A DNA stretch of 64,000 nt from Halarchaeum grantii (GTDB taxonomy: Archaea; Halobacteriota; Halobacteria; Halobacteriales; Halobacteriaceae), in assembly GCF_014647455.2 (NCBI RefSeq), contig NZ_BMPF01000003.1, positions 372,001 to 436,000 on the forward strand, given 5' to 3'. The position numbers were made by a program, and so were the translations under genes. Numbering within the stretch: position 1 is the first letter of the stretch; the number at the start of each line of letters is the position of its first letter. A model generated the notes under the pieces. It saw only the letters and a list, made by a program, of their open reading frames with translations. It made no database searches and was not told the origin of the DNA. Below are positions 6,393 to 33,400 of this stretch, in pieces.

Positions 6393-7478
6393 ATGGCACA
6401 CGGCGTGATACAGGTCGGCACGGGCGGGCAGGGCGAGAACTGGTGTCGGACGTTCCTCGAACCGCACGTCGCGGCCGGGCGCGTCGAGCCGGTCGCGGCG
6501 GTGGACGTCGACGAGGACGCCCACGAGAACGCGGTCGACGGCCTCGGGCTCCCGCCCGAGCGGTGCTACACGGACGTCGAGGGGGCGTTCGCCGCCCACC
6601 CCGAAGCGGACTTCTGCACGGTCGTGGTTCCGCCGTGGATCCACGAGGACGTCGTGGACGCTGCCCTCGAGCACGGCCTCGATATACTCTCCGAGAAACC
6701 CATCGCGGACACGCTGGAGGCCTCCGTCCGCATCGCCGAGAAGGTCGAGCGCGCGGGCGCGAAGATGGGCGTGACGATGAGCCACCGCTTCGATCGGGAC
6801 AAGACGACGCTGCGCCGGGAGATCCGCGCGTCGCGAAACGGCCCGCTCGACTACCTGGTCGGGCGCTTCACCTGCGACCTCCGCGAGTACGGCGAGTGGG
6901 GGGCGTTCCGCCACGACATGGACGACCCGCTCCTCGTCGACGGCGCCGTCCACCAACTCGACTTCCTCGCGGACATGGCGGGTGAGACCTGCGAGACGGT
7001 CTACGCGGACACGTGGAAGCCCGAGTGGGCGGAGTACGACGGCGACTGTCAGGCGCTCGTCCAGATGCGCATGCGGAACGGCGTCCGTATCAGCTGGGAG
7101 GGCGCGAAGGCCAACGCGGTCGGCCTGAACAACTGGGGGCAGGACTACGTTCGGGCGGAGTGTCGGGACGCGACGCTGGTCCTCGACGACCGCGAGCTCG
7201 CCCGTCACGCCCACCAGGAGGAGCCGGCGCGCTGGGGGCGCGGCGACGACGACCCCGAGGAACTCGCGCTCGCGGAGCGCGAGCACTGGTCGAACACGTG
7301 GCTGGTCGGGCAGTTCTGTGAGTGGCTGGACGGCGGCGAGCCGATGGCGACGAACGTCCGGGCGAACCTCCAGTCGGTCGCGCTCGTCGCGGCCGCCGTC
7401 GAGTCGAGCGAGACCGGCGAGCCGGTTCGGGTCCAAGAGCGACTGCGTGAGGCGGAGGCCGACGTCGACCTCAAGTAA
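6393..7478 (+). CDS. Gfo/Idh/MocA-family NAD(P)-dependent sugar oxidoreductase
   Basis: The 361-residue protein has an N-terminal Rossmann motif (QVGTGGQGENW) and the family signature SEKPIA near residue 105, whose lysine is catalytic. The C-terminal alpha/beta domain includes DGAVHQLDFLADM, with the conserved Asp and His. Members oxidise or epimerise sugars and cyclitols; the haloarchaeal xylose/glucose dehydrogenases belong here. The ATG at 6393 was chosen over the in-frame ATG at 6366 because the latter overlaps the TATA element TTTATG (6362-6367), which is about 28 nt before 6393. It stands alone after the IclR gene and probably supplies the first oxidation step of the neighbouring pathway. 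Confidence 0.88.
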   Translation: MAHGVIQVGTGGQGENWCRTFLEPHVAAGRVEPVAAVDVDEDAHENAVDGLGLPPERCYTDVEGAFAAHPEADFCTVVVPPWIHEDVVDAALEHGLDILSEKPIADTLEASVRIAEKVERAGAKMGVTMSHRFDRDKTTLRREIRASRNGPLDYLVGRFTCDLREYGEWGAFRHDMDDPLLVDGAVHQLDFLADMAGETCETVYADTWKPEWAEYDGDCQALVQMRMRNGVRISWEGAKANAVGLNNWGQDYVRAECRDATLVLDDRELARHAHQEEPARWGRGDDDPEELALAEREHWSNTWLVGQFCEWLDGGEPMATNVRANLQSVALVAAAVESSETGEPVRVQERLREAEADVDLK

Positions 7479-7519
7479 CGCGGCGTGCGCGAGGGGTGGA
7501 GTGGCGGGCGGCCGAGGGC

Positions 7520-8302
7520 TCAGAGCGGGAGGCCGCCCCAGCGGAGGGAGACCATCGCGGCGATGATGACGAACTGGAGGACGCCCTGAACGCCGGATAT
7601 CTTGGCGTTTCGGAGGCCGATGTCGCCGACGAGGTCGGTGTCGGGGTTCTCGGAGGTTATCTCGCGGTAGATGCGGACTTCGCCGGGCATGAGGACGCCG
7701 TTCCCGAGGACGGTGAGGAGCGTGATGTCGACGAGGACGACGAGCATGACGGGGCTCGTCATCGCGAACGCGCCCATCGTGTCGTAGAGGAAGGCCGCGC
7801 TCCCGACGACGGCGACGCCGAACCACGCGAGCCAGCGCCGGTCGCGGAAGGCGTCGAACTGGTAGCCGATGCTGAGGAGCGAGGGGACGGTGACGGCGGC
7901 GGTGAAGAGTGCGAGCCACGGCATCGCGTGCGGGAAGACGCTCATCCGCATCGCGAGCGTGATGCCGCCGACCGTCGTGATCGCGGCGAGCGTCGGCATG
8001 ACGAAGAAGAGTTTCGGGGTGAACTTCTCGAAGACGGCGGCGCGGACGCGCGGGTCGACGCCGCCGAGGACGGGCCCGATGACGGCGGCCATGAAGACGT
8101 CGATGCCGGTCCAGAGGGCGCCCGCCATCACGTGGACGTAGGTGTGTTGTTGGACGCTCGCGGCGGTGACGGCGTAGACGAGCGCGAGGAGTGGGAGCGC
8201 GACGACTGCGAGCGCGAACGCGGGGTTCGCGCGCCGCGCCAATCCGCCGATGGTGGCGACGACGCTCGTCCGATTCGTCGGCTGCGCGGACCGTGTACTC
8301 AT
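7520..8302 (-). CDS. Polytopic membrane protein (CopD/DUF2269-like)
   Basis: The 260-residue protein has about six or seven hydrophobic segments. The first follows a short Arg-rich N-terminus, and a conserved-looking HVMAGALWTGIDVF segment near residue 57 resembles the first helices of CopD/DUF2269-type membrane proteins. Other segments include PTLAAITTVGGITLAMR and SPVMLVVLVDITLLTVLG. No catalytic motif is recognised. A palindromic ACAGTACTGG element lies 28-40 nt upstream of the start, in the core promoter position, and resembles the 13-bp units upstream of the next gene. Co-regulation of the two membrane proteins is therefore possible. Function unknown. Confidence 0.72.
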   Translation of the reverse strand: MSTRSAQPTNRTSVVATIGGLARRANPAFALAVVALPLLALVYAVTAASVQQHTYVHVMAGALWTGIDVFMAAVIGPVLGGVDPRVRAAVFEKFTPKLFFVMPTLAAITTVGGITLAMRMSVFPHAMPWLALFTAAVTVPSLLSIGYQFDAFRDRRWLAWFGVAVVGSAAFLYDTMGAFAMTSPVMLVVLVDITLLTVLGNGVLMPGEVRIYREITSENPDTDLVGDIGLRNAKISGVQGVLQFVIIAAMVSLRWGGLPL

Positions 8303-10967: not shown

Positions 10968-12620
10968 TTACGCGCGGTCGAGGTCGCTCTCGTACTCGCT
11001 CGCGGCCGCCGCCGAGGGTTCGTCCGGGTCGACGGCGACGTCCACGAGGTCGGGGCCGTCGCGGGCGAGCGCGGCGGCGACGGCGTCCGCGGCCGCGGTC
11101 ACGGTGTCGACGCTGGTGGCGCGCACGCCCATCCCCTCGGCGACCGTGGCGAAGTCGGCGGCGTCCCACGCGAAGGCGCCCTCCTCGGCGTCGCGTATCG
11201 CCGGGGACTTCGAGATGACGCCGTAGTCGGCGTTGTTCGAGACGACGACGGTGACGTTCAGGTCCGCCTCGGCGAGCGTGTGAAGCTCGTGAACGCACAT
11301 CATGAGGCCACCGTCGCCGGTGAGGCAGAGGACGGGCTCGTCGCGCCCGACGGCCGCACCGATGGCGGCGGGGAGGCCGACGCCCATGCCCGCCCACGAC
11401 CCGGCGGTGACGAACGTCTCGGGGGTATGGGCGTCGAAGGCCTGCATCGACCAGAGGCGGAAGCCCCCGACGTCCGTCGTCACCGGGACGTCGCGCGGGG
11501 TGGCGTTGCGGACGGCGCGCAGGAGCGCGGGCGCGCGCTCCGGGTCGAGGAGGTCCGCGTCGGCGAGGTGGCGCTCGTACTCCGCGCGGACGTCGCGGCC
11601 GACCCGCTCGCCGTCCCAGGTATCTCCCGAATCGAGGCCGTCGAGCAGGCGGTCGGCGGCGGCCGCGACGTCGTCGACGATGGCGACGTCCGCGTCGTAG
11701 GCGGCGTCGACGTCCGAGAGCGCGAGCGTGACGTGGACGAGCGCGTCGCCCATCGGGAGCGACCAGCCGTCGGTGGTGACGCCGTCGAAGTCCGTTCCGA
11801 GGGCGAGCACGACGTCGGCGGCGTCGAGCGCGGCGACGGCCCCGGCGGGCGTGTGACTGCCGGTGACGCCGAGACACCGCGGGTCGTCCTCGGGGAAGAC
11901 GCCCTTGCCCTTGTAGGAGGTGAGGACGGGTGCGTCCAGCGCGTCGGCGAGCTCGCGGACGGCCTCGGGGCCACCGGGAGAGCGCCGCGCGCCGCCGCCC
12001 GCGTAGACGAGGGGGCGCTCGGCGTCCGCGAGGAGGGCGCGCGCGGCGGCGTCGGCGGCCGCGTTGTCGTAGGTCCGCGTCTCGGGGGCGACCGCCGCGT
12101 CGGGGGCGTCGCCCACGTCGGCGGCGAGGAGCGAGGCCGGCACGCCCAGCCGAACGGGCCCGTAGGGCTCGGTGAGCGCCGTCTCGATGCCCGCCGCGAC
12201 GGCGCTCGGGAGGTCGACGGCGCGCTCGACGGTGACGTTCTCCTTCACGACGGCGTCGAACGTCCCGGGGTCGAGTTCGTGGATGGGGCCCTTCCCCCGG
12301 TGCTCGGGCGCGACGTCGGCGGAGACGTGGAGTATCGGCACGCAGTCCTCGTGGGCGTTCTGCAGGCCGTGCATCGCGTTCGTGTCGCCCGGGCCGGGGA
12401 CGGTGAGCGTCGCCGCCGGCCGGCCGGTCGCCTCGTAGTACCCCCACGCGACGTGCGGGATCGCCGTCTCGTGGCGCGCCATCACGTACGTCATCTCGTC
12501 GCGGTCGGCGACGACGCGGTCGAGCGCGAGCGTCTGCGTCCCCGGGAGACCGACGAGCAACTCGACGCCCGCGTCGCGGAGGGCGTCGTGGACGACGTCG
12601 GCGCCAGTTCGGCCCGTCAT
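10968..12620 (-). CDS. Thiamine-diphosphate-dependent enzyme, acetolactate-synthase-like
   Basis: The 550-residue protein has the three-domain layout of the acetolactate synthase/benzoylformate decarboxylase family. The catalytic glutamate is in the MARHETAIPHVAWGYYEATG segment near residue 50. The central domain carries YAGGGARRSPG. The TPP/Mg motif GDGG...SNN is near residues 430-460. Such enzymes decarboxylate or ligate 2-oxo acids. An in-frame TTG at 12647 is upstream, but the ATG at 12620 begins the conserved N-terminus (TGADVVHDALRDAGVELLVG). A degraded relative of its N-terminal region lies at 37717-37990. Divergent from a D-2-hydroxyacid dehydrogenase gene 91 nt away, perhaps acting on related 2-oxo/2-hydroxy acids. 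Confidence 0.88.
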   Translation of the reverse strand: MTGRTGADVVHDALRDAGVELLVGLPGTQTLALDRVVADRDEMTYVMARHETAIPHVAWGYYEATGRPAATLTVPGPGDTNAMHGLQNAHEDCVPILHVSADVAPEHRGKGPIHELDPGTFDAVVKENVTVERAVDLPSAVAAGIETALTEPYGPVRLGVPASLLAADVGDAPDAAVAPETRTYDNAAADAAARALLADAERPLVYAGGGARRSPGGPEAVRELADALDAPVLTSYKGKGVFPEDDPRCLGVTGSHTPAGAVAALDAADVVLALGTDFDGVTTDGWSLPMGDALVHVTLALSDVDAAYDADVAIVDDVAAAADRLLDGLDSGDTWDGERVGRDVRAEYERHLADADLLDPERAPALLRAVRNATPRDVPVTTDVGGFRLWSMQAFDAHTPETFVTAGSWAGMGVGLPAAIGAAVGRDEPVLCLTGDGGLMMCVHELHTLAEADLNVTVVVSNNADYGVISKSPAIRDAEEGAFAWDAADFATVAEGMGVRATSVDTVTAAADAVAAALARDGPDLVDVAVDPDEPSAAAASEYESDLDRA

Positions 12621-12711
12621 ACGCGACCGAGCGGGCGCAGTGTACAAGGCAGTATCCCCCGACCCCTGCCGTCGGCGGTACAGTTATGCGCGCCTCGCTG
12701 GACGAACGAGC

Positions 12712-13683
12712 ATGAGCGAGCACACGGTCCTCGTCCTCCGCGAGGGGACGCACGGAATGCCGATGAGCGAGTACGCCGCCGCGATACGCGAGCGACGACC
12801 CGACGACGACGTCGTCCTCGCGCGAACACGCGACGAGGAGCGCGAGCTGATCGCGGACGCGGACGTCGTCACCGGCGGCGGCCTCGGTCGGGACCTCCTC
12901 GAGCGCGCCGACGGGCTCGCCCTCTTCGCGGCAATCTCCGCCGGCTACGAGCACCTCCCGCTCGACGACATCACCGCGCGCGGCGCCGTCGTCACGAACG
13001 CCTCCGGGGTGCACGTCCCGAACATGGCCGAGCAGGTGCTGGGGAACCTCCTCGTCTTCGCGCGCCGCCTCGACGAGGGATGGCGCCGCCAGCAGGTGCC
13101 GCGCTGGGAGCACTATCAAGCGGGCGAGCTGAAGGACTCGACCGTCACCGTCGTCGGCCTCGGCGCCATCGGGCAGGGCATCGTCGCGCGCCTCGAGCCG
13201 TTCGGCGTGGAGACGGTCGGCGTGCGCTACTCCCCGGAGAAGGGCGGCCCGACGGACGAGGTCGTCGGCTTCGACGGCCCCGGCTTCGAGGCGGCGCTCG
13301 CGCGCACCGACTACCTCGTGCTCGCGTGCCCGCTGACGGACACGACCGAGGGCCTCGTCGACGACGCGGCGTTCGGGACGCTCCCGCCGGACGCCGTCCT
13401 CGTGAACGTCGCGCGCGGCGGCGTCGTGGAGACCGACGCGCTCCTCCGCGCCCTGCGCAAGAACGAGCTCCGGGGCGCCGCGCTCGACGTCACCGACCCC
13501 GAACCCCTCCCGGAGGACCACCCGCTCTGGGCGTTCGAGAACGTCCACGTCACGCCGCACATGGCGGGGAGCACGCCCGAGTACTACGAGCGGTGTGCGG
13601 ACATCCTCGCGCGGAACCTCGAACGCGTCGACGAGACCGGCGACTACGCGGGCCTCGAGAACGCCGTCGCCGAACCCGAGTAG
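12712..13683 (+). CDS. D-isomer-specific 2-hydroxyacid dehydrogenase
   Basis: The 323-residue protein has the Rossmann motif GLGAIGQG near residue 149 and the catalytic Arg in NVARGGVVE, Glu in DPEPLPEDHPLW and His in TPHMAGSTP. This is the full triad of the family, which includes phosphoglycerate, glyoxylate/hydroxypyruvate and lactate dehydrogenases. It reduces a 2-oxo acid to a D-2-hydroxy acid with NAD(P)H. The start ATG at 12712 has GTTATGCG (12683-12690) about 25 nt upstream. Specific substrate cannot be assigned. Confidence 0.92.
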   Translation: MSEHTVLVLREGTHGMPMSEYAAAIRERRPDDDVVLARTRDEERELIADADVVTGGGLGRDLLERADGLALFAAISAGYEHLPLDDITARGAVVTNASGVHVPNMAEQVLGNLLVFARRLDEGWRRQQVPRWEHYQAGELKDSTVTVVGLGAIGQGIVARLEPFGVETVGVRYSPEKGGPTDEVVGFDGPGFEAALARTDYLVLACPLTDTTEGLVDDAAFGTLPPDAVLVNVARGGVVETDALLRALRKNELRGAALDVTDPEPLPEDHPLWAFENVHVTPHMAGSTPEYYERCADILARNLERVDETGDYAGLENAVAEPE

Positions 13684-13729: not shown

Positions 13730-14632
13730 ATGTCCATCGTAGTCGTGGGGTCGTACGTGGCGGGATTGACGATGCAGGTGCCGCGCTTCCCGGTCGCGGG
13801 CGAGACGATTTCGGCGTCGTCGTTTACGGCAGGCGCGGGCGGGAAGGGGTCGAATCAGGCGGTCGCGGTGTCGCGGCTCGGCGTCGAATCGGCGTTCGTC
13901 GGGCGGGTGGGCGACGACGACTACGCGGCCGACGCCGAGGCGCTCTGGGCGCGCGAGGGCGTCGGGGCCGAGCACGCCGAGCGAGTCAGTGAGGCGACGA
14001 CAGGCGTCGCGTTCATCCTCGTGGACGACGACGGCGAGAACCAGATCGTCGTCTCGGGCGGCGCGAACAACCGACTCGGGAGCTCGGAAGTCGAGGCCGC
14101 ACGCGACGCCATCGCGGACGCGGACGTCCTGCTCACCCAACTGGAGATCCCGGTCGCGGCCGTCGAGGCGGCGCTCGACGTCGCGGGTGAGGTGGGGACG
14201 ACGGCGATACTGAACCCGGCGCCCGGCCACGGGTTGCCGAGGGAGGTGGTGGCGAAGGCGGACTACCTCACGCCGAACGAGAGCGAGGCACGCGTCGTCG
14301 CGGGCTACGGGCCGGACGACGACGTCTCTGATGAGACGGTGGCGCGCGACCTCCACGCGATGGGCGCGGGCACGGTCGTGCTGACGCAGGGCGCGAACGG
14401 CGCGATGGCGCTCGACGACGACGGCGTCACCTCGGTGCCGGCGCCGGACGTGACCGTCGTCGACCCGACGGGCGCGGGCGACGCGTTCAACGCCGGGTTC
14501 GCGGTCGGCCTCCACGAGGGCAAACCGCTGCGGGAGGCGCTCGCGTTCGGCTGTCGCGTCGGATCGCTCGCCACCACCGCAGAGGAAGTCGTGCCCGCGC
14601 TGCCGTCGCGCGAGGCCGTCGAGGAGTTCTAG
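13730..14632 (+). CDS. PfkB-family carbohydrate kinase, ribokinase-like
   Basis: The 300-residue protein is a PfkB sugar kinase with the N-terminal signature GGKGSNQAVAVSRLG near residue 37 and the C-terminal signature DPTGAGDAFNAGFAVGL near residue 244, whose second Asp is the catalytic base. The anion-hole GAGD is intact. The ribokinase-type GxNxxxA pattern (GGKGSNQAVA) points to ribose or a related sugar. The leaderless start at 13730 has GTTTAGG 26-32 nt upstream. The nucleoside hydrolase at 21556-22497 would release ribose, a plausible substrate. Its stop codon overlaps that of the convergent LutB-LutA fusion gene by 3 nt. Confidence 0.9.
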   Translation: MSIVVVGSYVAGLTMQVPRFPVAGETISASSFTAGAGGKGSNQAVAVSRLGVESAFVGRVGDDDYAADAEALWAREGVGAEHAERVSEATTGVAFILVDDDGENQIVVSGGANNRLGSSEVEAARDAIADADVLLTQLEIPVAAVEAALDVAGEVGTTAILNPAPGHGLPREVVAKADYLTPNESEARVVAGYGPDDDVSDETVARDLHAMGAGTVVLTQGANGAMALDDDGVTSVPAPDVTVVDPTGAGDAFNAGFAVGLHEGKPLREALAFGCRVGSLATTAEEVVPALPSREAVEEF

Positions 14633-16827
14633 GGACCGGGGTCGAGGAGCTCGACGGGGTGGGTGACGTCGCGCCCGAAGAGGTCGCCCATCTGCTCGGT
14701 GCAGGACGTCCCGCTCGCGACGAGCGTGCGGTCGTCCTCGTCGGCGAACTGCTCGTAGAGGTCCTCGCCGACGTCCATCGAGAGCTCGTAATACTCGGAC
14801 TTGTAGCCGAAGCTCCCCGCCATCCCGCAGCACTCGACGTCCGAGGTGACGACGTCGAAGCCGTGGTCCTCGAGGACGGCCTCGGTGTAGGCCTCGACGC
14901 CGAGGGTGCGCTGCTGGCAGTGCGAGTGGTAGGCGACCGGCTCCTCGGGAGCGGCGAGAGTCGACCCATCGGCGCCGTTCTCGAGGAGGCCGTAGACGTA
15001 CTCCATGACGTCGTAGCTGTTCTCGGCGAGGCGGTCGTGCGCCGCCTCCGGGAGGAGGTACTCGTACTCGCGGCGGAACGCCGCCAAGTCGGAGGGCTCG
15101 ATGACGGCGACGTCGAAGCCCGCCTCCAGGTAGGGCTCGAGGTCGGCGGCGACCGCGTCGGCCTGCTCGCTCGCGGTGTCGATCATCCCCTGTGAGAGTG
15201 GGGCGCGCCCGCTCTCGATGGGCGAGGCGAGTTCGACGTGCGCGCCGAGCGCTTCGAGGACGCGGACTGCGGCCTTCCCGCGCTCGACGAGCACGTAGTT
15301 CGTGTAGGCGTCCGGGTAGAGGAGGACTTTTCGGGTGGCGTCCGCGTTCGGCGCGCGCGGCCGTCGGGACTCGAACCACTCCACGAGCGTCTCGCGCTGG
15401 AACTGCGGGAGGTCGCGTTCCCGGGAGACGCCGAGGTACTCGTCCATGAGCGAGCGGACGGGGCCGAGTTTCGCCGTCCAGTTCGAGAGGGGCGCGGTCT
15501 TGCTCCCGAGTTCGGCGAGCGTCCCGAAGTTCCCGAAGAGGCGCTTCTGGAGGTCCACCGAGTCCTCGGCGTCCGGGGTGAGGCCCTCGACGAGGAACTC
15601 GAACTCGCTCGGGGTGGCGTCGCCGTTCAGCCGGTCGCGGACGACCGTGTTGATCCACGGGATATCGATCTTCACGGGGCAGGCGTTCACGCAGCGCGAG
15701 CACCCCGTACAGAGGTCGTTGAACTCGTCTGCGGCCTCCTCGCCGCGAAGGCCGGCCTCCCAGCCGGTCGCGATGCCGCCCGTGTAGGTCTCGCCGCCGA
15801 AGGCGTGGCCGCCGACGTGCTGGAAGTTCCCGCAGGAGTTCGCGCACGCGCCACAGCGGATGCAGTAGAGCGTCTCCTTCAACTGGTCGTCCTCGCGCAT
15901 GTCGAGGCGGCCGTTGTCGATGAGGACGAGGTGGAACTCGCGCTCGCCGTCGCCCGACCCGAGGGGGTCGTCGGGGTTCTCGAAGTCGATCGTGGGGGAG
16001 TCGACGGGCGGCGTGAACATCGAGACGTACTGCGAGATGTCCTGTCCGGTCGCGGTCTTCGAGATGAGCTCGACGAACGGCTGGAGCTCCTCGACGCTCG
16101 GGAGGATCTTCTCGACGCCGGTGACGGCGACGTGCGTGTCGGGCGTCACGGCGGTCTTTCGGGCGTTGCCCTCGTTGGTGACGAGCGTGATGGTGCCCGA
16201 GTCCGCGAGCACGAAGTTCGCGCCCGTCATCCCCATGTCGGCGGCGTGGATCTTCTCGCCGAGGTAGTCGCGCGCGAACGCCGTGAGCTCCTCGGCGGTC
16301 TCGAAGGGCTCCTCGGGGTCGAAGACCTCGTTGAAGAGGTCGGCGACGTCCTCGCGCGAGCGGTGGAGCGACGGGCCGATGAGGTGGGAGGGGCCCTCGT
16401 CGGCGACCTGAAGGACGAACTCGCCGAGGTCGGTCTCCCAGACGTCGACGCCGGCGGCCTCGAGGGCGTCGTTCATCTCGATCTCCTCGCTCGTCATCGA
16501 CTTCGACTTGACGAGGGTGTCGGCGTCCTTCGAGTCGGCGACGTCAGTGATGTACCGGTTGGCGTCGGCGGCGTCGTCGGCGACGTAGAGGTGGCCGCCG
16601 TTCGCCTCGACGCTCTCGCGGACCTGCTCGACGAGCGCGGGGAGGTCCGCGATGGCGTCCTCCTTGATGGCGCGCGCTTCCTCGCGGAGCGCCTCGAAGT
16701 CGTCGAAGCGCTCGATGGCGTCGTAGCGCTCCGCGTTCATGTGCGTGATGTTCTCGTGGACGGCGTCGCCCTCGGTCTCGAGGAGGTGGCGTATCTTCTC
16801 GGCCTTCCGGCGGCGCTCGGCGCTCAT
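14629..16827 (-). CDS. LutB-LutA fusion: LUD domain, two [4Fe-4S] clusters and CCG domain
   Basis: The 732-residue protein joins the domains of the lactate-utilisation proteins LutB and LutA. An LUD domain is at about 70-290 (LVKSKSMTSEEI, ADMGMTGANFVLADSGTI). Two ferredoxin clusters follow near residues 322-335 (CIRCGACANSCG) and 373-385 (CTGCSRCVNACP). A CCG-type domain at about 630-730 has cysteines in YHSHCQQRTLG, VECCGMAGSFG and GTSCTEQMG. With LutC, such proteins oxidise L-lactate to pyruvate, or act on related 2-hydroxy acids such as glycolate. The start ATG overlaps the LutC stop by 4 nt, indicating translational coupling. Bacterial LutA and LutB are separate; the fusion is common in archaea. 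Confidence 0.9.
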   Translation of the reverse strand: MSAERRRKAEKIRHLLETEGDAVHENITHMNAERYDAIERFDDFEALREEARAIKEDAIADLPALVEQVRESVEANGGHLYVADDAADANRYITDVADSKDADTLVKSKSMTSEEIEMNDALEAAGVDVWETDLGEFVLQVADEGPSHLIGPSLHRSREDVADLFNEVFDPEEPFETAEELTAFARDYLGEKIHAADMGMTGANFVLADSGTITLVTNEGNARKTAVTPDTHVAVTGVEKILPSVEELQPFVELISKTATGQDISQYVSMFTPPVDSPTIDFENPDDPLGSGDGEREFHLVLIDNGRLDMREDDQLKETLYCIRCGACANSCGNFQHVGGHAFGGETYTGGIATGWEAGLRGEEAADEFNDLCTGCSRCVNACPVKIDIPWINTVVRDRLNGDATPSEFEFLVEGLTPDAEDSVDLQKRLFGNFGTLAELGSKTAPLSNWTAKLGPVRSLMDEYLGVSRERDLPQFQRETLVEWFESRRPRAPNADATRKVLLYPDAYTNYVLVERGKAAVRVLEALGAHVELASPIESGRAPLSQGMIDTASEQADAVAADLEPYLEAGFDVAVIEPSDLAAFRREYEYLLPEAAHDRLAENSYDVMEYVYGLLENGADGSTLAAPEEPVAYHSHCQQRTLGVEAYTEAVLEDHGFDVVTSDVECCGMAGSFGYKSEYYELSMDVGEDLYEQFADEDDRTLVASGTSCTEQMGDLFGRDVTHPVELLDPGP

Positions 16828-17327
16828 CGTTCCTCCAGAATCAGGACGTGGACGTGTTTCGGGCCGTGGACGCCCTCGACGAGCGCGCCCATGTCGCCGG
16901 TGGAGCTGACGCCGGTCGCGAAGACGGACGACCCCCCGTCGGCGAAGCGCACGCCGAGGTGGTCGCTCGCGGACTCGACGTCCGGGAGGACGTCCGACTC
17001 GCGGACGACGGCGACGTGTGTCGGCGGGTAAAGGCTCACGGGCTCGGTCCCCGCGGGGTCGGAGTCGACGACGAGCGTCCCGTAGCGGGCGATGGCCTTC
17101 CCGGCGCGCGTCACGCCGGTGTTGGCCTCGCGCAGGAGACGCGGTGTCGGGGGCGTCTCCACGGCAGTCCCGTCGAGGGAGACGCCGTCGATACCCAAGG
17201 GCACGCCGACCGCAGGTGGGTCGATGGCGGACGCGAGCGCGTCCTCGAACCCGTCGGGGGTCGTCCGCGTCCACCCCACCTCCAGGCGGTCGAGCGACGA
17301 TTCGAAAGTCGATAGCGCGGTGCTCAT
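16824..17327 (-). CDS. LutC-like LUD-domain protein
   Basis: The 167-residue protein is a single LUD domain like LutC: TPRLLREANTGVTRAG, the strand-rich core GTLVVDSDPAG and the C-terminal GVSSTGDMGALVEGVHGPKHVHVLI. It is the partner of the LutB-LutA fusion encoded immediately downstream with a 4-nt ATGA-type overlap. The complex is expected to oxidise L-lactate or a similar 2-hydroxy acid in the cytoplasm. It starts 48 nt after the PdxA2-like gene, on the same strand, so it may belong to the same transcript as the C4-acid genes. Confidence 0.87.
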   Translation of the reverse strand: MSTALSTFESSLDRLEVGWTRTTPDGFEDALASAIDPPAVGVPLGIDGVSLDGTAVETPPTPRLLREANTGVTRAGKAIARYGTLVVDSDPAGTEPVSLYPPTHVAVVRESDVLPDVESASDHLGVRFADGGSSVFATGVSSTGDMGALVEGVHGPKHVHVLILEER

Positions 17328-17375: not shown

Positions 17376-18389
17376 TCACGCGTCCCGGTCGCGGCGGTTG
17401 CGGACGGCGGTCGCGGCGAGCGAGATGGCGTCGCGCATGCTCGCCGGGGAGGCGACGCCGTCGCCCGCGATGTCGAATGCGGTGCCGTGGTCGACGCTCG
17501 TGCGGACGATGGGGAGGCCGACGGTCACGTTGACGCCGCTCACGCCCCCGGCCTCGTCGAAGCCGAGCGTCTTGATCGGGATGTGGCCCTGGTCGTGGTA
17601 CATGGAGACGACGCAGTCGAAGGCGCCGCGCGCGGCGCGGACGTACACCGTGTCCGGGGACTCGGGGCCGACGGCGTCGATGCCCTCGGCGCGGGCGCGC
17701 TCGACGGCGGGCGCGATCTCGTCGGCTTCCTCGTCGCCGAGGAGGCCGCCGTCGCTCGCGTGCGGGTTCAGGCCGGCGACGCCGATGGTCGGGTCGTCGA
17801 GGCCGAGGTCGCGCAGGCCCTCGCGCGTGACGCGAATCGTGTCGAGGACGCGCTCCTCGGTGACGAGGTCGCAGGCCTCGCGGAGCGGGACGTGCGTGCT
17901 GACGTGCGTGACGCGGAGGTCGTCCTCGACGAGCATCATCGAGTAGGTCTCGGTGCCCGTGCGCTCGGCGAGGAGGCCGGTGTGCCCGGCGTGCTCGGCG
18001 CCCGCCATGCGGGTCGCCTGCTTGTTGATCGGCGCGGTGACGATGCCGTCGACGACGCCGTCGAGCGCGAGGTCGATGGCGCGCTCGACGTAGTCGAGGC
18101 TCGCCGCGCCGAACGACTCGCGGAGGACGCCCCACTCGTGGTCGGCGACGTTCGCGAGGTCGAGGACGTCCATCGTCCCGGCGTCGTAGCGCGCCTCTCG
18201 CGGGTCGTCGATGGCGCGCACGTCGAGGTCGAGGCCGCGGATGGCGAGCGCGCGCCGGAGGACGGCGGCGTCGCCGACCACGAGGAGGTCGGCGTCCGTC
18301 GCTCCCTCGGCGAAGGCGGCGGCGACGACTTCCGCGCCGATACCGGCGGGGTCACCCATCGTCACGGCGAGTCGCGGGGGTCGCTCCAT
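17376..18389 (-). CDS. pdxA2: PdxA2-type 4-phospho-sugar-acid dehydrogenase (D-threonate/D-erythronate 4-phosphate)
   Basis: The 337-residue protein has the complete PdxA metal/substrate site: MGDPAGIGAEV at the N-terminus, HAGHTGLLAERTG with the first metal His, MYHDQGHIPIK with the second, and SVDHGTAFDIAG with the third. Biosynthetic PdxA makes a pyridoxal precursor. PdxA2 proteins encoded beside a DUF1537 kinase instead oxidise D-threonate or D-erythronate 4-phosphate and release CO2 to give dihydroxyacetone phosphate. The adjacent upstream gene (28 nt away) is exactly such a kinase, so the catabolic role is preferred. Confidence 0.88.
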   Translation of the reverse strand: MERPPRLAVTMGDPAGIGAEVVAAAFAEGATDADLLVVGDAAVLRRALAIRGLDLDVRAIDDPREARYDAGTMDVLDLANVADHEWGVLRESFGAASLDYVERAIDLALDGVVDGIVTAPINKQATRMAGAEHAGHTGLLAERTGTETYSMMLVEDDLRVTHVSTHVPLREACDLVTEERVLDTIRVTREGLRDLGLDDPTIGVAGLNPHASDGGLLGDEEADEIAPAVERARAEGIDAVGPESPDTVYVRAARGAFDCVVSMYHDQGHIPIKTLGFDEAGGVSGVNVTVGLPIVRTSVDHGTAFDIAGDGVASPASMRDAISLAATAVRNRRDRDA

Positions 18390-18416
18390 TCGCCGATGCT
18401 TCGGCAGGTGGGGGCT

Positions 18417-19664
18417 TTACCGTTTCGCGCCGGGGACGCGCCGGACGTAGTCGAGGGCGTCGGCGAGCGTCGCGTCGCCGCCGAACGCGCCGGCTTTCGT
18501 GACGAGCGGCGTCCCGTCGGCGCGGCCGCCGCGCACGACGCTCCCGGGGACGCCGGGCGCGACGGCCTCGCCACGGAGCGCCAACCCGCCGGCGTCGAGG
18601 GCGTCGAGGGCGGCGCGGGCGACGGCGCCGCCGGTGAGAACGAGGCCGTCAGGCGCGCTCGCGTCCCAGACGGCGCGTGCGGCACGCCCGAGGGCGTCGG
18701 TGACGCGGTCGCGCGCCGCGCGCTCGCTCACGTCGGCGTCGCGGGCGGCGGCGAGCGTCGTCTCGACATCCTCGCGGGTTCGCGCGGACGCGAGGACGAC
18801 GACGGACGAGGCGGCGAGGCGGTCCCGGCAGGTCGAGACGGCGTCGGCGGCCGCACCCTCGGGGTCGGTGACGGCGCGCTCGGCGGCGAGCGAGACGACC
18901 GCCGAATCGGGCAGGTGGTCGAGTTGGGCGAGCGTCTCGGGGGCGACGCTCCCGGCGACGCCGAACGCCGTGCCGGTGGGGGTCTCGCGGAGGGACTGGC
19001 GCTCGACGGTGGGCGCGTCGAGGGTGACGTGCTCGGCGAGGCCACCGCTCCCGACGAGAAGGGCGTCTCGCTCGCGCGCGGCGTCCGCGACCGCGGCGAG
19101 ATGGGAGTCGTGGACGGCGTCGACGGCGGTGACGCGCGCGCCGTCCAGCGCGACGTCGCCGCGCGCGACCCGTTCGACGCCGGTGTGTCCGACGTCGTCG
19201 AGGCCCTGCGCACGCAGGAGGCCGGGAAGCGAGGAGTCGGTGACGGGGCCGTCCGGGTCGTTTCCGGCGGGCGTGTCGGCGACGAGGTCGCCCTCGACGA
19301 GGTGGACGCCACACGCGGTGACGCGGCCGTTCGAGGGGAACGCGGGCGCGACGGCGGCGGCCTCGGCGTCGGCGGCGTCGAGCGCGGCCGCGATCTCGGG
19401 GCCGAGGTTCCCGCGAAGCGTCGAGTCCACCTTCTTGTAGACGACGGCGGCGTCGACGCCCGCGAGGACGTCGCGGACGCGGCGGGCGGCCGCGTCCGGG
19501 GCGAGATAGCGCGAGTCGGTGTCGGCGACGACGACGGCGGCGTCCGTCTCGAAGTCGGGGGTGAGGCAGACGACCGTCTCGTGGCCGCGCGCGGCGAAGC
19601 CGTGGCCGGTGTCGCACGCGCCCGTGAGGTCGTCCGCGACGACGAGCGCCGCCCGCTCAGTCAT
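18417..19664 (-). CDS. DUF1537 four-carbon acid sugar kinase
   Basis: The 415-residue protein has the two-domain DUF1537 architecture. The N-terminal sugar-acid-binding domain carries VVADDLTGACDTG near residue 8 and the signature YKKVDSTLRGN near 72. The C-terminal nucleotide-binding domain carries LVLTGGAVARAAL and the final VVRGG...VTKAGAFGG. The family phosphorylates threonate, erythronate and related acids at O-4. The ATG at 19664 begins the conserved N-terminus; the stop of the upstream LarA-like gene lies inside the first codons (8-nt overlap). With PdxA2 downstream, it makes a two-step route from a four-carbon acid to dihydroxyacetone phosphate. Confidence 0.9.
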   Translation of the reverse strand: MTERAALVVADDLTGACDTGHGFAARGHETVVCLTPDFETDAAVVVADTDSRYLAPDAAARRVRDVLAGVDAAVVYKKVDSTLRGNLGPEIAAALDAADAEAAAVAPAFPSNGRVTACGVHLVEGDLVADTPAGNDPDGPVTDSSLPGLLRAQGLDDVGHTGVERVARGDVALDGARVTAVDAVHDSHLAAVADAARERDALLVGSGGLAEHVTLDAPTVERQSLRETPTGTAFGVAGSVAPETLAQLDHLPDSAVVSLAAERAVTDPEGAAADAVSTCRDRLAASSVVVLASARTREDVETTLAAARDADVSERAARDRVTDALGRAARAVWDASAPDGLVLTGGAVARAALDALDAGGLALRGEAVAPGVPGSVVRGGRADGTPLVTKAGAFGGDATLADALDYVRRVPGAKR

Positions 19665-20979
19665 CGTCGAAGCCGAACGCGAAGTCCCCGGCGGCGTCGA
19701 AGGAGAGGGCGACGCGCGGGCCGACGGTCGTGTCGTCGCGCGCATCGAGGTCGGCGGCGACCGGCTCGGAGACGTAGAGCGCGTCGGGTTCGAGGGTGTT
19801 CTCGATGTAGGCGATGCGGAGGTCGGCGGGGTCTTTCACGCCGAGCATCGAGTAGGCGAGTTCGAGGGTCGCGCGGTCGCTCGGCGTGACGACGGGCACG
19901 AAGACGCGCGCGGGTTCGCCGCTCGTCGCCGCGTTCGTGTAGGTGTCCGCGAGGTCGACGTCCGCGAGCAACTGCTCGTGGGCGAAGTCCGCGAGCCCCA
20001 TCCCGATGGCGTTCCCGTGCGAGGCGAGCGTGAGACCACGGACGTAGATACGGCCGATGTCGGGTGTATCTGGCTCCTCCTCGCCGGCGTAGCGATAGCG
20101 TCCGATGACGTTCGTGTCCATGCCCGACCCGGAGACGTCCTTCCCGAGTTCGTCGACGACGAGCAGGTCGAGGTCATCAACGGGGAGGCCGGCGAAGAGG
20201 TCGGCGGATGCCTCGAGCAACTCGGGTTCGCGATCGAGTATCTCGTCGGCGGGCACGCCCTCGATGCGGGCGGCGCGCTCGCGGGCGTTGTCGAGGAGGG
20301 CGATGCCGCCGACGACGGGCGTTTCCTCGAAGAGGAGCGCGGCGCGCTCGCGGATGACGGTTTCGAGGCCGCGCGAGATGGCGGCGTTGTGCATCTCCTC
20401 GGCACCGCGCTGTTTCCCGAGGCCGACGACGGCCATCTTCGCGAGGCCGGACTCGACGTCGCCCCGGAAGTCGGTGTGGAGTTTGACGCGGTTCGCGAGG
20501 AGGACGGCGTCCGCATCGAGCGCGACCGTCGAGGCGGGGACGGGACGCCCCTCGTCGTCCTCGGCGACGGATTCGACGGCCATCGACGCGCGTATCTCAC
20601 ACCCCAGCGAGTCCTCGGTGACGCCGTACTCGGCGAGGACCTCGCGCTGTCCCTCGGCGGTGGCGCCGCCGTGGCTCCCCATCGCGGGGAGGACGAACGG
20701 TTCGAGGCCGCGCTCGCGGAGTTCGTCGACGGCGGTGGCGACGAGTTCGGGCATGTCGTGGATGCCGCGACTCCCCATCGTCACCGCGACGTCGGCGCCG
20801 TCGTCCAAGGACTCGAGCGCGGGAATCGCGTCGATGGCGTCGCGGGTCGCCGCCGCGACGTCGTCGACCCGTGGCGGGTCGCGGTGGCGTTCGGCGAACG
20901 CAAATCGCGGGAAGTCGGCGACGTCGACGTCGTTGATGGCCGCGAGCGCGTCGGCGTCGGGCACGTCGAGTTCGACCAT
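19657..20979 (-). CDS. LarA-like (lactate racemase family, DUF2088) protein
   Basis: The 440-residue protein resembles the LarA superfamily. It has the motif MGSHGGATAEGQ near residue 105 (position of the first catalytic His), then VKLHTDFRGDVESGLAKM near 165 (second His and the Lys expected to bind the nickel-pincer cofactor), and a C-terminal domain with DELGKDVSGSGMDTN. LarA homologues include racemases and epimerases of 2-hydroxy acids. Co-translation with the DUF1537 kinase suggests it interconverts a C4 sugar acid before phosphorylation, but a non-racemase role is possible. The ATG at 20979 is preferred over an in-frame GTG at 20994 that adds five residues. Confidence 0.72.
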   Translation of the reverse strand: MVELDVPDADALAAINDVDVADFPRFAFAERHRDPPRVDDVAAATRDAIDAIPALESLDDGADVAVTMGSRGIHDMPELVATAVDELRERGLEPFVLPAMGSHGGATAEGQREVLAEYGVTEDSLGCEIRASMAVESVAEDDEGRPVPASTVALDADAVLLANRVKLHTDFRGDVESGLAKMAVVGLGKQRGAEEMHNAAISRGLETVIRERAALLFEETPVVGGIALLDNARERAARIEGVPADEILDREPELLEASADLFAGLPVDDLDLLVVDELGKDVSGSGMDTNVIGRYRYAGEEEPDTPDIGRIYVRGLTLASHGNAIGMGLADFAHEQLLADVDLADTYTNAATSGEPARVFVPVVTPSDRATLELAYSMLGVKDPADLRIAYIENTLEPDALYVSEPVAADLDARDDTTVGPRVALSFDAAGDFAFGFDDD

Positions 20980-28004: not shown

Positions 28005-29486
28005 CTAGACGGTGAGCGTGGTCTCGGCCCACCCGGACGCGCCCGAGGGGAAGGTGTCCGTCTCCGCTCGCGGTTGGACGGTGCCGTCGTCGGTGACGGC
28101 GCGCGCGCGGACGTCGTGCTCGCCGCTCGGCGGAGCCTCCCACGTGTAGGCCCACTGGCGCCAGACGTCGCCATCGAGCGCGCCGTCGAGGCGCTCGGAG
28201 AGTCGGGCGTCGCGCCACGTCTCGCCGCCGTCGACGCTGACCTCGACGCGGGCGACGCCGCGCGTGCCGGCGTAGGCGACGCCGGCGAGCGTGACGGCAT
28301 CGGGGGCGCGCTCGGTCGCCCAGATCTTCGTGACGGCGTTCACGGGACCGGTGCCGTGCCAGCCGCGGCGCTCCCAGTAGCCGTCGGCCTCGCGCTCAAG
28401 GAACTCGAGGGCGGTCACCCACTTGACGTTCACCTCGCCCCAGTGGCCGGGGACGAGCAGGCGGACCGGGTGGCCATGCGCGCGGGGGAGGGGGTCGCCG
28501 TTCATGCCGAACGCGAGGAAGCCGTCGCGGAGCGCGGCGAGGGGGAACTCGACCTCGTAGCCGTCGGCGGCGTGGACCATGACGCAGCCGCAGTCGCTCG
28601 ATATCGCGCGGCCCTCGAGGAGCGCGTCGACGGGGACGCCGGTCCAGACGGCGGTGTCGGTGAGTTTCCCGTCGACGGGGTCGGAGACGCAGCGGAGGGT
28701 GTCGACGGCGTCGGTGCGCTCCTCGCGTTCGCGGAGGGCGTCGAAGCCGACGGGCGCGGGGTCGTCGATGGCGCCCTCGAAGCGCAGCTCCCAGTCGGCG
28801 GCCTCGACGTAGGGGTCGGCGCTGTTGATGTCGACAGTGTAGAACTCGTCGTTCGTGGAGAGGAGGCCGGGGAGGCCGTCGACGGCGAGCGATTTCTCGT
28901 CGGCGTCGGCTTCGAGGGCGGCGACGCGTTCGTCGCGGTAGCGCCCGTCGGCGGGGACGGGTGTGCGGACGGCCGTGTTGCGGCCTGCGTAGCCGGCGAG
29001 CGCGCCGAAGACGGCGACGCCGCCCGCGGCGCGGAGGACGCGGCGACGGGCGGGCGAGAGCGCGGCGCGGGGCGGTCGCGGGTCGGCGAGGAAGTAGAGG
29101 ACGACGACGGCGGCGGGGACGCCGGCACCGAACGCGCGAAAGAGGGAGCCGGTGGTGACGGCGGTGACGGCGGTGACGAGGAGGGCGACGGCGAAGACGC
29201 CGAGCGCGGGGGCGTCGAGTCGGAGGGCGATTTCGACGATGCTACCGACGAGCGCGGCGAGCACGAGCACGGTGAGGGCGAACGCGACGGCGTAGGCGAC
29301 GGCGTCGGTGAGGCCGGGGGCCTGCGAGACGACGACGCCGACGAGGGCGCCGGGCGTGTATCGTGCGACGACGTCGTAGGCGGGGGTGACGACGAACGCG
29401 AGCGTCGCGCCGGCGACGGCAAACGACCCGGCGACGGCGGCGAGCGCGGCGAGCACGGGCGCGGCGACCCGGTCTATGTCGGCCAT
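28005..29486 (-). CDS. Membrane-anchored sulfite-oxidase-family molybdopterin oxidoreductase
   Basis: The 493-residue protein has four hydrophobic helices in the first 135 residues. An RRRVLRAAGGVAVFGALAG segment near 147, like an internal twin-arginine signal or fifth helix, follows. The soluble part has the sulfite-oxidase fold: the Mo-ligand Cys in TLRCVSDPVDG near 264, HGHPVRLLVPGHWGEVNVKW near 338, and a C-terminal Mo-co dimerisation domain (RVEVSVDGGETWRDA near 420). The catalytic domain should therefore lie outside the cell. Substrate may be sulfite, or oxidised methionine as in YedY. No partner cytochrome gene is adjacent. Confidence 0.88.
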   Translation of the reverse strand: MADIDRVAAPVLAALAAVAGSFAVAGATLAFVVTPAYDVVARYTPGALVGVVVSQAPGLTDAVAYAVAFALTVLVLAALVGSIVEIALRLDAPALGVFAVALLVTAVTAVTTGSLFRAFGAGVPAAVVVLYFLADPRPPRAALSPARRRVLRAAGGVAVFGALAGYAGRNTAVRTPVPADGRYRDERVAALEADADEKSLAVDGLPGLLSTNDEFYTVDINSADPYVEAADWELRFEGAIDDPAPVGFDALREREERTDAVDTLRCVSDPVDGKLTDTAVWTGVPVDALLEGRAISSDCGCVMVHAADGYEVEFPLAALRDGFLAFGMNGDPLPRAHGHPVRLLVPGHWGEVNVKWVTALEFLEREADGYWERRGWHGTGPVNAVTKIWATERAPDAVTLAGVAYAGTRGVARVEVSVDGGETWRDARLSERLDGALDGDVWRQWAYTWEAPPSGEHDVRARAVTDDGTVQPRAETDTFPSGASGWAETTLTV

Positions 29487-29571
29487 GCACGCGATACGGG
29501 TGGTCCCGTGTTAGCAGTTGTGCCTCCCGTGGTCCCGAAACCACTATGGCTCTCTCGAACCCCGAGTCTGT

Positions 29572-30435
29572 ATGAGCGAGACGGCACGCGCGGACGGGGG
29601 GACCGGGGGAGAGGAGGAGCGACGGGACGTGGTGGTCGTCGGCGGCGGGCCGGCGGGCTGTGCGGCGGCGGTGTTCACGGCACGCTACGGCCTCGACACC
29701 GTCGTCTTCGACCGCGGTCCGTCCTCGATTCGGCGCTGTGGCCACCTCGAGAACTACCTCGGCTTCCCCGCCGGCATCGACATCGAGACGTTCGTCGCCC
29801 TCGCCCACGACCACGTCGAGCAGTCCGGTGGCGACGTGATCGCCGACACCGTGGAGTCGGTCGAGCGCGCCGACGGTGGCTTTCGGGTGGCGACGGCCGA
29901 CGGCCGCGTCGTTCGTGCGGAGCGCGTCGTCGCCGCCGCGAAATACGGGGGCGACCCGTTCCTCGGCCTCGACGAGGACGCCGTGGAAGTCGTCGCACAC
30001 GACGGCGAGGAGTCCGAGCGCTTCGACTCGGCGTACGCGGACCGAGAGGGCCGAACCCCGACGGAGGGCTTCTACGTCGCGGGGCCGCTCGCTGGCGTGC
30101 GCGACCAAGCGCTCGTCGCGGCGGGCCACGGCGCCGGGGTCGGGTGCGCCATCGTCGAGGACGTCCGCCGCGAAGCGGGCTACTGGGAGGCCGTCGCCGC
30201 CTACTACGACTGGGTGCGCCGCGAGGAGAACCTGACCGGCGAGTGGGCGGACCGCGAGCACTGGCGCGAGTACCTCGCGGCGAACGCACCCGAGGACGTG
30301 GACGAGGAGACGTTCCAGCGGGTGTGCGAGGCGTACATCGACGAGCGCTTCGCGCAGTACCGCTCGCCCGAGGAGCGCGAACGCCTCCAGTCGGAAGGCC
30401 ACGCGCGCCTCGCCGAGCACCTCGACGTCGAGTAG
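29572..30435 (+). CDS. FAD-dependent NAD(P)-type oxidoreductase, thioredoxin-reductase-like without CxxC
   Basis: The 287-residue protein begins, after an acidic leader, with a dinucleotide fold (VVVVGGGPAGCAAAVFTARYG near residue 21). It continues with FDRGPSSIRRCGHLENYLGFPAGI, as in thioredoxin-reductase relatives, and has a second FAD motif (EGFYVAGPLAGVRDQALVAAGHG near 165). The redox CxxC and a complete NADPH domain are missing, and the C-terminal third is helical and charged. It may use a bound flavin in a reaction I cannot specify. The ATG at 29572 was chosen because the leader upstream is not family-like. It is divergent from the molybdopterin oxidoreductase gene (85 nt between starts). 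Confidence 0.82.
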   Translation: MSETARADGGTGGEEERRDVVVVGGGPAGCAAAVFTARYGLDTVVFDRGPSSIRRCGHLENYLGFPAGIDIETFVALAHDHVEQSGGDVIADTVESVERADGGFRVATADGRVVRAERVVAAAKYGGDPFLGLDEDAVEVVAHDGEESERFDSAYADREGRTPTEGFYVAGPLAGVRDQALVAAGHGAGVGCAIVEDVRREAGYWEAVAAYYDWVRREENLTGEWADREHWREYLAANAPEDVDEETFQRVCEAYIDERFAQYRSPEERERLQSEGHARLAEHLDVE

Positions 30436-30669: not shown

Positions 30670-31434
30670 ATGCCCGAACAAAGCCGGCGAACGGTCGACG
30701 CAGTCCACACCGCCTGCGATATCCTCGATGTCCTCCAGACGCGCGAGCGTGCGGGAGTTACCGAAATCGCCGAGGAGGTCGGACTCGCGAAGGGAGCTGT
30801 CCACCGTCATCTAGTGACGCTCAACAACCGCGAATACGTTGTGAACGAGGACGGCGAATACCGCCTAAGCCTCCGCTATCTCGATATGGCGAACCAGGTG
30901 AAGGGGATGGTCGGGAACTACGACGTCATCGCGGGCGAACTCCAGAACCTCGCGGAGGCTACGGGCGAAATCGCGCAGTTCGCGACTGAAGAGCACGGAT
31001 GGGTGACGTACGTGTACAAATCAACCGGTGATTCCGGTATTCAAACGGCCTCTTCGGCGGGCAAGCGCGAGTACATGCACTCGACGTCGCTCGGGAAGGC
31101 GATGCTCGCAGAGATGGACGAGGAGCGTGCCCGCGATATTCTCGCCGATCACGAGATGCCAAAGAAGACCGAACACACGTGCACGGACGCCGAGGCGCTG
31201 ATGGAACTTCTCTCGGACGTCCGCGAGCGCGGCTACGCCCTCGATAACGAGGAAAACATCACCGGCCTGCGCTGTGTCGGGATGCCACTCACGGACAGCG
31301 ACTCAGACGTCTTCGGCGCGGTGAGCGTCTCCGGGCCGGTGAGTCGTATGACGGACGAGCGCATCGACAGCGAAATCGCCGAGACGCTCGAGCGCTCTAC
31401 GAACGTCATCGAAATCAACTCGAAATTCGCCTGA
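30670..31434 (+). CDS. IclR-family transcriptional regulator (second copy)
   Basis: The 254-residue protein has a winged helix (TACDILDVLQTRERAGVTEIA, recognition helix KGAVHRHLVTL) and an IclR effector domain (HSTSLGKAMLAEM, RGYALDNEENITGLRCVG, GAVSVSGPVSR). It is a paralogue of the regulator at 5387-6151, of equal length. Codon use is less GC-biased than in most of the window. Its neighbours are an aldehyde dehydrogenase, a Gfo/Idh/MocA dehydrogenase and an FAH protein on the opposite strand, likely targets in sugar-acid catabolism. The start at 30670 is supported by a TATA element. Confidence 0.92.
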   Translation: MPEQSRRTVDAVHTACDILDVLQTRERAGVTEIAEEVGLAKGAVHRHLVTLNNREYVVNEDGEYRLSLRYLDMANQVKGMVGNYDVIAGELQNLAEATGEIAQFATEEHGWVTYVYKSTGDSGIQTASSAGKREYMHSTSLGKAMLAEMDEERARDILADHEMPKKTEHTCTDAEALMELLSDVRERGYALDNEENITGLRCVGMPLTDSDSDVFGAVSVSGPVSRMTDERIDSEIAETLERSTNVIEINSKFA

Positions 31435-31957: not shown

Positions 31958-33400
31958 TCAGTAGTTGTCGTAGACGGTCTTGGAGATGGTGTAGAAGTCG
32001 ATACCGGCGTCGCCCTGCTCGCGCCACGTCTCGGAGGAGGAGCGCTTGAAGCCGCCGAAGGGAACGTGGAGCTCGAGGCCCGTGGTCTTGTCGTTGACCT
32101 TCACGACGCCCGCCTCGGAGTCGTCGATGAAGCTCTTGGCTTCGGTGTGGTCGTCGGTAACGATGCTGGAGGAGAGGCCGTAGTCGACGTCGTTCGCGAC
32201 GTCGAGGGCCTCCTCGTAGTCCGAGACCTTGATGACAGCGACGACGGGACCGAAGACCTCCTCTTGGGCGATGCGGTAATCGCGTTCCACATCGGTGAAC
32301 ACGGTGGGCTCGACGTAGAACCCGTCACCGAGATCGTCGGGGACGCCGCCGCCGGTGGCGAGCGTCGCGCCCTCGTTCTCGGCGATGTCGATGTACTCGA
32401 GGGTACCCTCGACCTCGGACTCGGAGACCTGCGGACCCATGTCCGCCTCGTTGCCGGGGCCGATCTCGATGGACTCGGCCTCGTCGACGAGGGCGTCGAC
32501 GAACTCGTCGTAGACGTCCTCGTGGACGATAGCGCGCGAGCAGGCCGTACAGGACTGCCCGGTCGTTCCGAAGCCACCGGACGCCACGATGTCGGCGGCC
32601 TCCTCGGGGTCGGCCGAAGAGGCGACGACCGTCGGGTTCTTGCCGCCCATCTCCATCTGGGCGCGCTTGCCGTGGTCGGTCGCCTGATCGTAGACCATCT
32701 CGCCGACCTGCGAGCTCCCGGTGAAGGAGACGGCGTCGACCTCGTCGGCCTCCACGAACGTGTTGGCGACGGAACTACCGGGACCGGTGACGACGTTCAG
32801 GACGCCGTCGGGGAGGCCGGCCTCGTCGAGGGCCTCGGCGAGCGCAACGGCGGGACCGGGCGCGACGCTCGCGGGCTTGAGGACGACCGCGTTCCCGGTC
32901 GCGAGGGCGGGCGCGAGCTTCCAGGCGGGAATCGCGATGGGGTAGTTCCACGGCGTGATGAGCGCGGCGACGCCGACCGGCTCCTGGATCGTGTAGAGGT
33001 CCGTGTCGGGGCCGCTGGCCTGTTTGCGCGTTCCGCCGAGGTCGGACGCCTTCTGTGCGAAGTAGTAGAAGATGTCGATGGCGCGCTGGACCTCGCCGGC
33101 GGCCTCGCCGCGTGCCTTGCCCTCTTCGGCGACGAGCTGGTCGGTGAGTTCGTCCTTCTTGTCGTCGAGGATCTTCGCGGCCTCGCGCAGGACCGTCCCG
33201 CGCTCGGGGCCGGGCGTCGCCGCCCACTCGTCGGCCGCCTCGGCGGCCGCCTCGACTGCCTCGGTCGCGTCCTCGCTCCCGGACTGCTGGTAGCGTGCGA
33301 CGACTTCGCTCGGGTCGGCGGGGTTGACGACGTCGAGCGTCTCGCCCGTCTCCGTCGTCGTCCACTCGCCACCCACGTAGTTCTTGTTCGCGTCTGGCAT
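31958..33400 (-). CDS. Aldehyde dehydrogenase, 2-oxoglutarate-semialdehyde-dehydrogenase-like (XacF type)
   Basis: The 480-residue protein is a complete ALDH: ITPWNYPIAIPAWKLAPAL near residue 150, the catalytic Glu in EMGGKNP near 249, the catalytic Cys in GTTGQSCTACSR near 283, and the C-terminal FGGFKRSSSETWREQG. The DKTTGLELHVPFGG segment is typical of archaeal 2-oxoglutarate semialdehyde and related dehydrogenases. It would oxidise the semialdehyde formed by an FAH-type dehydratase (1359-2234 or possibly 34695-35423) to 2-oxoglutarate. A decayed relative of its C-terminal quarter is at 36144-36370. Confidence 0.9.
   Translation of the reverse strand: MPDANKNYVGGEWTTTETGETLDVVNPADPSEVVARYQQSGSEDATEAVEAAAEAADEWAATPGPERGTVLREAAKILDDKKDELTDQLVAEEGKARGEAAGEVQRAIDIFYYFAQKASDLGGTRKQASGPDTDLYTIQEPVGVAALITPWNYPIAIPAWKLAPALATGNAVVLKPASVAPGPAVALAEALDEAGLPDGVLNVVTGPGSSVANTFVEADEVDAVSFTGSSQVGEMVYDQATDHGKRAQMEMGGKNPTVVASSADPEEAADIVASGGFGTTGQSCTACSRAIVHEDVYDEFVDALVDEAESIEIGPGNEADMGPQVSESEVEGTLEYIDIAENEGATLATGGGVPDDLGDGFYVEPTVFTDVERDYRIAQEEVFGPVVAVIKVSDYEEALDVANDVDYGLSSSIVTDDHTEAKSFIDDSEAGVVKVNDKTTGLELHVPFGGFKRSSSETWREQGDAGIDFYTISKTVYDNY

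Follow-up and report, generated by a model that had tools for sequence, protein, structure and literature searches.

Why does a haloarchaeal operon that encodes a DUF1537-family kinase and a PdxA2-like dehydrogenase begin with a gene of the LarA superfamily? The question is raised by five genes, all on the minus strand, in a 64,000-nucleotide stretch of a Halarchaeum genome (hereafter the window; all coordinates are window positions). As far as homology and predicted structure allow us to judge, it is rather likely that the operon is a four-carbon (C4) sugar-acid catabolic module in which the LarA protein, as a C2-epimerase dependent on the nickel-pincer nucleotide (NPN) cofactor, interconverts most likely D-erythronate and D-threonate and feeds the kinase and PdxA2. 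The main argument for placing LarA, kinase and PdxA in one pathway is that the trio has been re-assembled in different gene orders. The operon consists of the following genes:

19657..20979, minus strand: LarA-superfamily gene, 440 amino acids, from ATG to TGA; proposed C4 sugar-acid 2-epimerase of the NPN-dependent isomerase group 22
18417..19664, minus strand: DUF1537 four-carbon acid sugar kinase, 415 amino acids, with PF07005 and PF17042
17376..18389, minus strand: PdxA2-type 4-phospho-tetronate dehydrogenase, 337 amino acids; PF04166 at 358 bits, TIGR00557 above cut-off
16824..17327, minus strand: LutC-like LUD-domain protein, 167 amino acids; PF02589 at 55.8 bits
14629..16827, minus strand: fusion of LUD, dicluster 4Fe-4S and CCG domains, LutB-LutA-like and nearest to LdhH, 732 amino acids

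The genes stand in the order LarA-kinase-PdxA-LUD-LutAB, and the kinase starts with an ATG at 19664 inside the end of the LarA gene; the 8 nt shared by the two genes, ATGACTGA, confirm the overlap described in the first-pass annotation of this DNA. A second overlap, of 4 nt, joins the fusion gene to the LUD gene. The same locus is found on plasmid pCBA1220-01 of Halarchaeum sp. CBA1220 (95.5% identity of the LarA protein), with all five genes intact and equal in length between the two, and the LarA/kinase overlap is annotated elsewhere too, with 8 nt in CBA1220 and 11 nt in Haladaptatus.

The LarA protein passes the NCBIfam model NF052515 (NPN_iso_grp_22, "nickel pincer cofactor-dependent isomerase, group 22") with 485.7 bits against a cut-off of 400 and reaches only 14.4 of the 23.3 bits set by Pfam Lar_N; a Lar_N search of the whole genome gave no match, which reflects the sensitivity limit of the model and not absence. 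With the window's protein below the Lar_N cut-off, counts of haloarchaeal NPN enzymes come out too low. When the PDB was searched with the protein by sequence and by profile, no LarA structure was retrieved, and it was the fold search alone that found them: given an AlphaFold2 model (pLDDT 90.5), the best 19 Foldseek matches in the PDB all belong to the LarA family (probability 1.00, identity 9–17%), and no confident match fell outside it.

The active site gives the same picture. R71, H103, H168, K181 and H197 are the equivalents of LarA R75, H108, H174, K184 and H200 (reference numbers from PMC12611868 and PMC11770544). Profile alignment with canonical haloarchaeal LarA proteins identifies H103 and H168 as the catalytic histidines and K181 as the NPN lysine, while the equivalence of H197 is drawn from the conserved Lys-to-His spacing, at 16 residues the same as in known LarAs, and that of R71 from its position; from the second catalytic histidine to the NPN lysine the distance is 13 residues versus 10. 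The two catalytic histidines, K181 and H197 are present in all 209 group-22 relatives, and R71 in 208 of them. With its complete set of NPN-binding and catalytic residues, the protein is a predicted NPN-dependent isomerase.

The check for larB, larC and larE suggested in the first-pass annotation, which had named a lack of cofactor genes as counting against its reading, turned up all three genes elsewhere in the genome and above cut-off: a full-length LarB (216 bits, cut-off 175), LarC (194 bits, cut-off 90; LarC2, 117 bits, cut-off 50) and LarE (293 bits, cut-off 150). The same genome contains exactly one detectable LarA homolog. Across a survey of 292 haloarchaeal genomes, NF052515 detects group 22 in 129, and LarE accompanies it in 125 of these versus 113 of the 163 genomes without a group-22 LarA (p=2e-10); of the genomes with group 22, 112 lack a Lar_N-type LarA, and LarE is present in 108 of those 112. 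Diverse bacteria also carry group 22, and their genes directly adjoin larC, or larB, larC and larE together. Separately, 59 of the 292 genomes have LarE and neither a group-22 LarA nor a Lar_N match, and may hold unrecognised NPN clients or other uses of LarE. Public annotation of group-22 proteins is mostly "DUF362 domain-containing" or "lactate racemase domain-containing".

In the same survey, the DUF1537 kinases number 51, and at least 18 of them have a group-22 LarA gene no more than 7 kb away, where 0.30 would be expected, though the genomes counted are related and not independent, so that the Poisson p-value overstates the significance and is indicative only. The kinases with such a neighbour are spread over seven genera, and the arrangement of the genes varies. 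Haladaptatus has the order LarA-kinase-cupin-PdxA, followed downstream by an ABC transporter and LUD genes; Natronococcus and others, as well as Pseudonocardia, have kinase-PdxA-LarA; two haloarchaea have kinase-PdxA-LUD-LutAB-LarA; in Rubrobacter indicoceani, LutABC is divergent from kinase-PdxA-LarA; and an Oscillospiraceae metagenome-assembled genome has a PdxA-LarA pair. The intergenic gaps within the kinase-PdxA-LarA clusters are mostly 4–120 nt. On a FastTree tree of the 209 group-22 LarAs, 21 of them at kinase+PdxA loci and 188 elsewhere, the kinase+PdxA state needs at least seven changes; the window's own clade (support 99) has 23 members, 15 of which are at kinase+PdxA loci and one next to PdxA only. 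Since the trio has been assembled repeatedly in archaea and bacteria, the LarA protein probably flips one carbon of C4 sugar acids.

The partners fit such a substrate at the level of the family. The kinase has the two-domain DUF1537 architecture (PF07005, SBD_N, 169.5 bits; PF17042, NBD_C, 86.4 bits), its nearest PDB sequences are 4xfm and 4xgj, and its best NCBIfam match is the D-threonate kinase model NF047819. PdxA has its closest PDB matches in the D-threonate 4-phosphate dehydrogenase entries 4jqp and 6e85, which score about 280 bits against about 197 bits for the PdxA structures 1ps7 and 1ptm, and it misses the equivalog cut-off of the D-threonate 4-phosphate dehydrogenase model NF002891 (306 vs 583 bits); by homology, it is PdxA2-like. 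A role for PdxA in vitamin B6 synthesis was also considered: the genome has one PdxA copy and PdxS as well, and because PdxS is present, PdxA would be dispensable for vitamin B6 and that role was rejected.

D-Erythronate (2R,3R) and D-threonate (2S,3R) differ solely at C2, the carbon that LarA inverts. Given this difference, the DUF1537-family kinases known for D-threonate (DtnK) and D-erythronate (DenK) (PMC10971088) and the precedent of LarA homologs that epimerise C2 of 4-deoxy-threonate/erythronate (PMC11770544), we infer epimerisation at C2 of a tetronate. The LarA protein would invert this carbon, with the nickel-pincer cofactor accepting the hydride in a proton-coupled transfer, and its likeliest reaction is the interconversion of D-erythronate and D-threonate; the kinase would then phosphorylate O4 of the preferred epimer, and PdxA2 would oxidise C3, with decarboxylation giving dihydroxyacetone phosphate. 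The epimerase would thereby let a single kinase/PdxA2 pair consume both epimers. Of the D and L series of tetronates the D series is the likelier one, the reaction may run in either direction, and the free acid is a likelier substrate than the 4-phosphate.

This is largely the picture of a nickel-pincer 2-hydroxy-acid epimerase in a C4 kinase/PdxA2 pathway that the first-pass annotation had drawn, and the NPN residues, the LarA-only fold, larB/C/E and the recurrent clustering give it strong support; its substrate is a deduction. The further suggestion that the operon starts from a stereoisomer outside the known pathways finds no support here, as DtnK and DenK are already known for D-threonate and D-erythronate (PMC10971088). 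Each of the protein families is known. Kinase routes have been described for the likely substrates, so what is new is the proposed epimerase step and not a growth substrate.

Several observations weigh against this reading, in addition to the relatedness of the genomes behind the adjacency count. The kinase misses the equivalog cut-off of the D-threonate kinase model (222.6 vs 450 bits): judged by its profile scores, it is a DUF1537-family member divergent from the characterised D-threonate kinases represented there, and its identity as DtnK is unsupported. Seven of the 23 members of the window's LarA clade have no adjacent kinase and PdxA, although in each case the genome or plasmid concerned carries a DUF1537 kinase at another site. 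Group-22 LarAs mostly occur in other sugar-acid contexts, next to a DUF4147 glycerate kinase, to enolase-family, SDR and cupin genes, to altronate dehydratase or to glucuronate isomerase, so that the family by itself leaves the substrate unfixed. The residues D170, E302 and S320 (numbering of the window's LarA protein), which track the context, follow phylogeny and add no independent support. The literature searched, with subscription papers and Table S1 of Desguin et al. 2020 on LarA-group gene contexts outside it, holds no tested substrate for any group-22 member; nor does it report the combination of LarA, kinase and PdxA.

The triple at positions 170/302/320 reads DES in 21 of 21 kinase+PdxA loci and NDT in 32 of 32 enolase/SDR/cupin (MLE-type) loci; of the 14 loci with glycerate kinase, 11 have DAT. 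It may mark substrate classes. As a specificity code it was rejected, for it follows the tree and DES occurs outside kinase loci too (for example in Actinopolymorpha and Oceanobacillus). At Haloarcula-type loci (L125, L176, L182, L211, L219, L229 and others of our survey), the DUF4147 glycerate kinase adjoins a group-22 LarA with LUD/LutAB, which suggests a glycerate racemase feeding glycerate kinase. Overall, group 22 looks like a sugar-acid epimerase family with clade-specific partners. Two further genes of this kind were noted in Halarchaeum. On the CBA1220 plasmid, another group-22-like gene, with the public annotation DUF362, lies about 12 kb from the operon (28259-29578 of locus L253), where the window's genome shows one LarA homolog; and in Halarchaeum acidiphilum the LarA gene of group 22 (7014-8152 of locus L108) matches as two separate pieces and is possibly frameshifted, a pseudogene or an assembly error.

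The surroundings of the operon look like a sugar-acid catabolic island. In the window, a haloarchaeal 2,5-dioxovalerate dehydrogenase is encoded at 31958-33400 (NF052305, 875.8 bits, cut-off 750) and an IclR-type regulator, with BhcR and KdgR as the nearest models, at 30670-31434; on the syntenic CBA1220 plasmid, pectate lyase, enolase-family and aldehyde dehydrogenase genes lie near the operon. Flanking it are genes for an acetolactate-synthase-like thiamine diphosphate enzyme (10968-12614), a D-2-hydroxyacid dehydrogenase (12709-13683) and a ribokinase-like protein (13733-14632), of which the first two recur near other group-22 LarA genes.

LUD/Lut-type genes do follow PdxA, as the first-pass annotation had it, though not as a LutABC set: there are two of them, the short LUD protein and the 732-aa fusion closest to LdhH. 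The cluster motifs CIRCGACANSC, CTGCSRCVNAC and CCG are intact in the fusion, but the equivalog cut-offs for LutABC and LdhH are missed (TIGR00273, 341.8 vs 444.8 bits; NF045670, 451.2 vs 800 bits), and the pair is related to these systems by domain architecture only, as far as the models tell. It is conceivable, although we think it unlikely, that LarA serves this pair, racemising a lactate- or glycerate-like 2-hydroxy acid for a LutABC-type oxidase, and that the kinase and PdxA are mere neighbours. LUD/LutAB genes are indeed found near group-22 LarAs without the kinase, in Haloarcula with the DUF4147 glycerate kinase and in Haloferax gibbonsii, and LutAB lies within 9 kb of LarA at 20 of the 188 non-kinase loci. 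The corresponding count at kinase+PdxA loci is 6 of 21, however, and at the other 15 LarA is still tightly coupled to the kinase and PdxA; in the window, moreover, the LarA gene overlaps the kinase gene and not the LUD genes. The LUD/LutAB-like pair may be an optional redox module, present with some of the kinase-PdxA-LarA clusters and missing from others.

Gene clustering with the kinase and PdxA would be explained equally well if LarA worked between them, epimerising the phosphorylated intermediate 4-phospho-D-erythronate to 4-phospho-D-threonate; we hold this to be improbable, as the characterised LarA homologs use unphosphorylated 2-hydroxy acids (PMC7583248, PMC11770544). There is similarly little chance, in our estimate, that LarA acts on a different and longer sugar acid, from pectin or hexuronate breakdown in the same island, of which only a product or side product reaches the kinase and PdxA2. 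The genes listed above for the syntenic plasmid, and the altronate dehydratase or glucuronate isomerase genes that adjoin bacterial group-22 members, agree with a longer acid, but the kinase-PdxA-LarA trio is found with no such pectin or hexuronate genes nearby in Rubrobacter and many haloarchaea.

If the proposed tetronate epimerase is real, it adds an epimerase step to C4 sugar-acid catabolism and explains why cofactor genes are kept in haloarchaea without any Lar_N-type LarA; in any case, the proposal offers a testable substrate for a nickel-pincer group to which the literature searched assigns no reaction. A wider generalisation, that group-22 LarAs are sugar-acid C2-epimerases whose partners are swapped between clades, and that with the window's clade a tetronate 2-epimerase dependent on NPN comes to light for the first time, one that in archaea and bacteria alike merges the D-erythronate and D-threonate routes to dihydroxyacetone phosphate, seems to us about evenly poised between right and wrong.

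Among known systems, the closest parallels to the LarA protein are the NPN racemases and epimerases LarA, Mar, Hgr and GntE (PMC7583248, PMC11770544), with which it shares the fold, the NPN-binding Arg, Lys and His and both catalytic histidines, and whose dependence on LarB/C/E is expected of it as well. It is 9–17% identical to the LarA structures solved so far, stays under the Pfam Lar_N cut-off and has three more residues than usual between the second catalytic histidine and the NPN lysine; from the single-histidine LarAs (PMC12611868) it differs in having both catalytic histidines. GntE, a D-gluconate 2-epimerase, is likewise a LarA-family C2-epimerase of a sugar acid, but belongs to a different LarA group and has different partner enzymes. 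With the D-threonate and D-erythronate pathways built on DtnK or DenK and PdxA2 (Zhang et al. 2016, as cited in PMC10971088), the operon has in common a kinase, a PdxA2-type dehydrogenase and dihydroxyacetone phosphate as the expected product; unlike them, it adds a LarA-type epimerase and a LUD/LutAB-like pair, and its kinase is divergent from the D-threonate kinase model.

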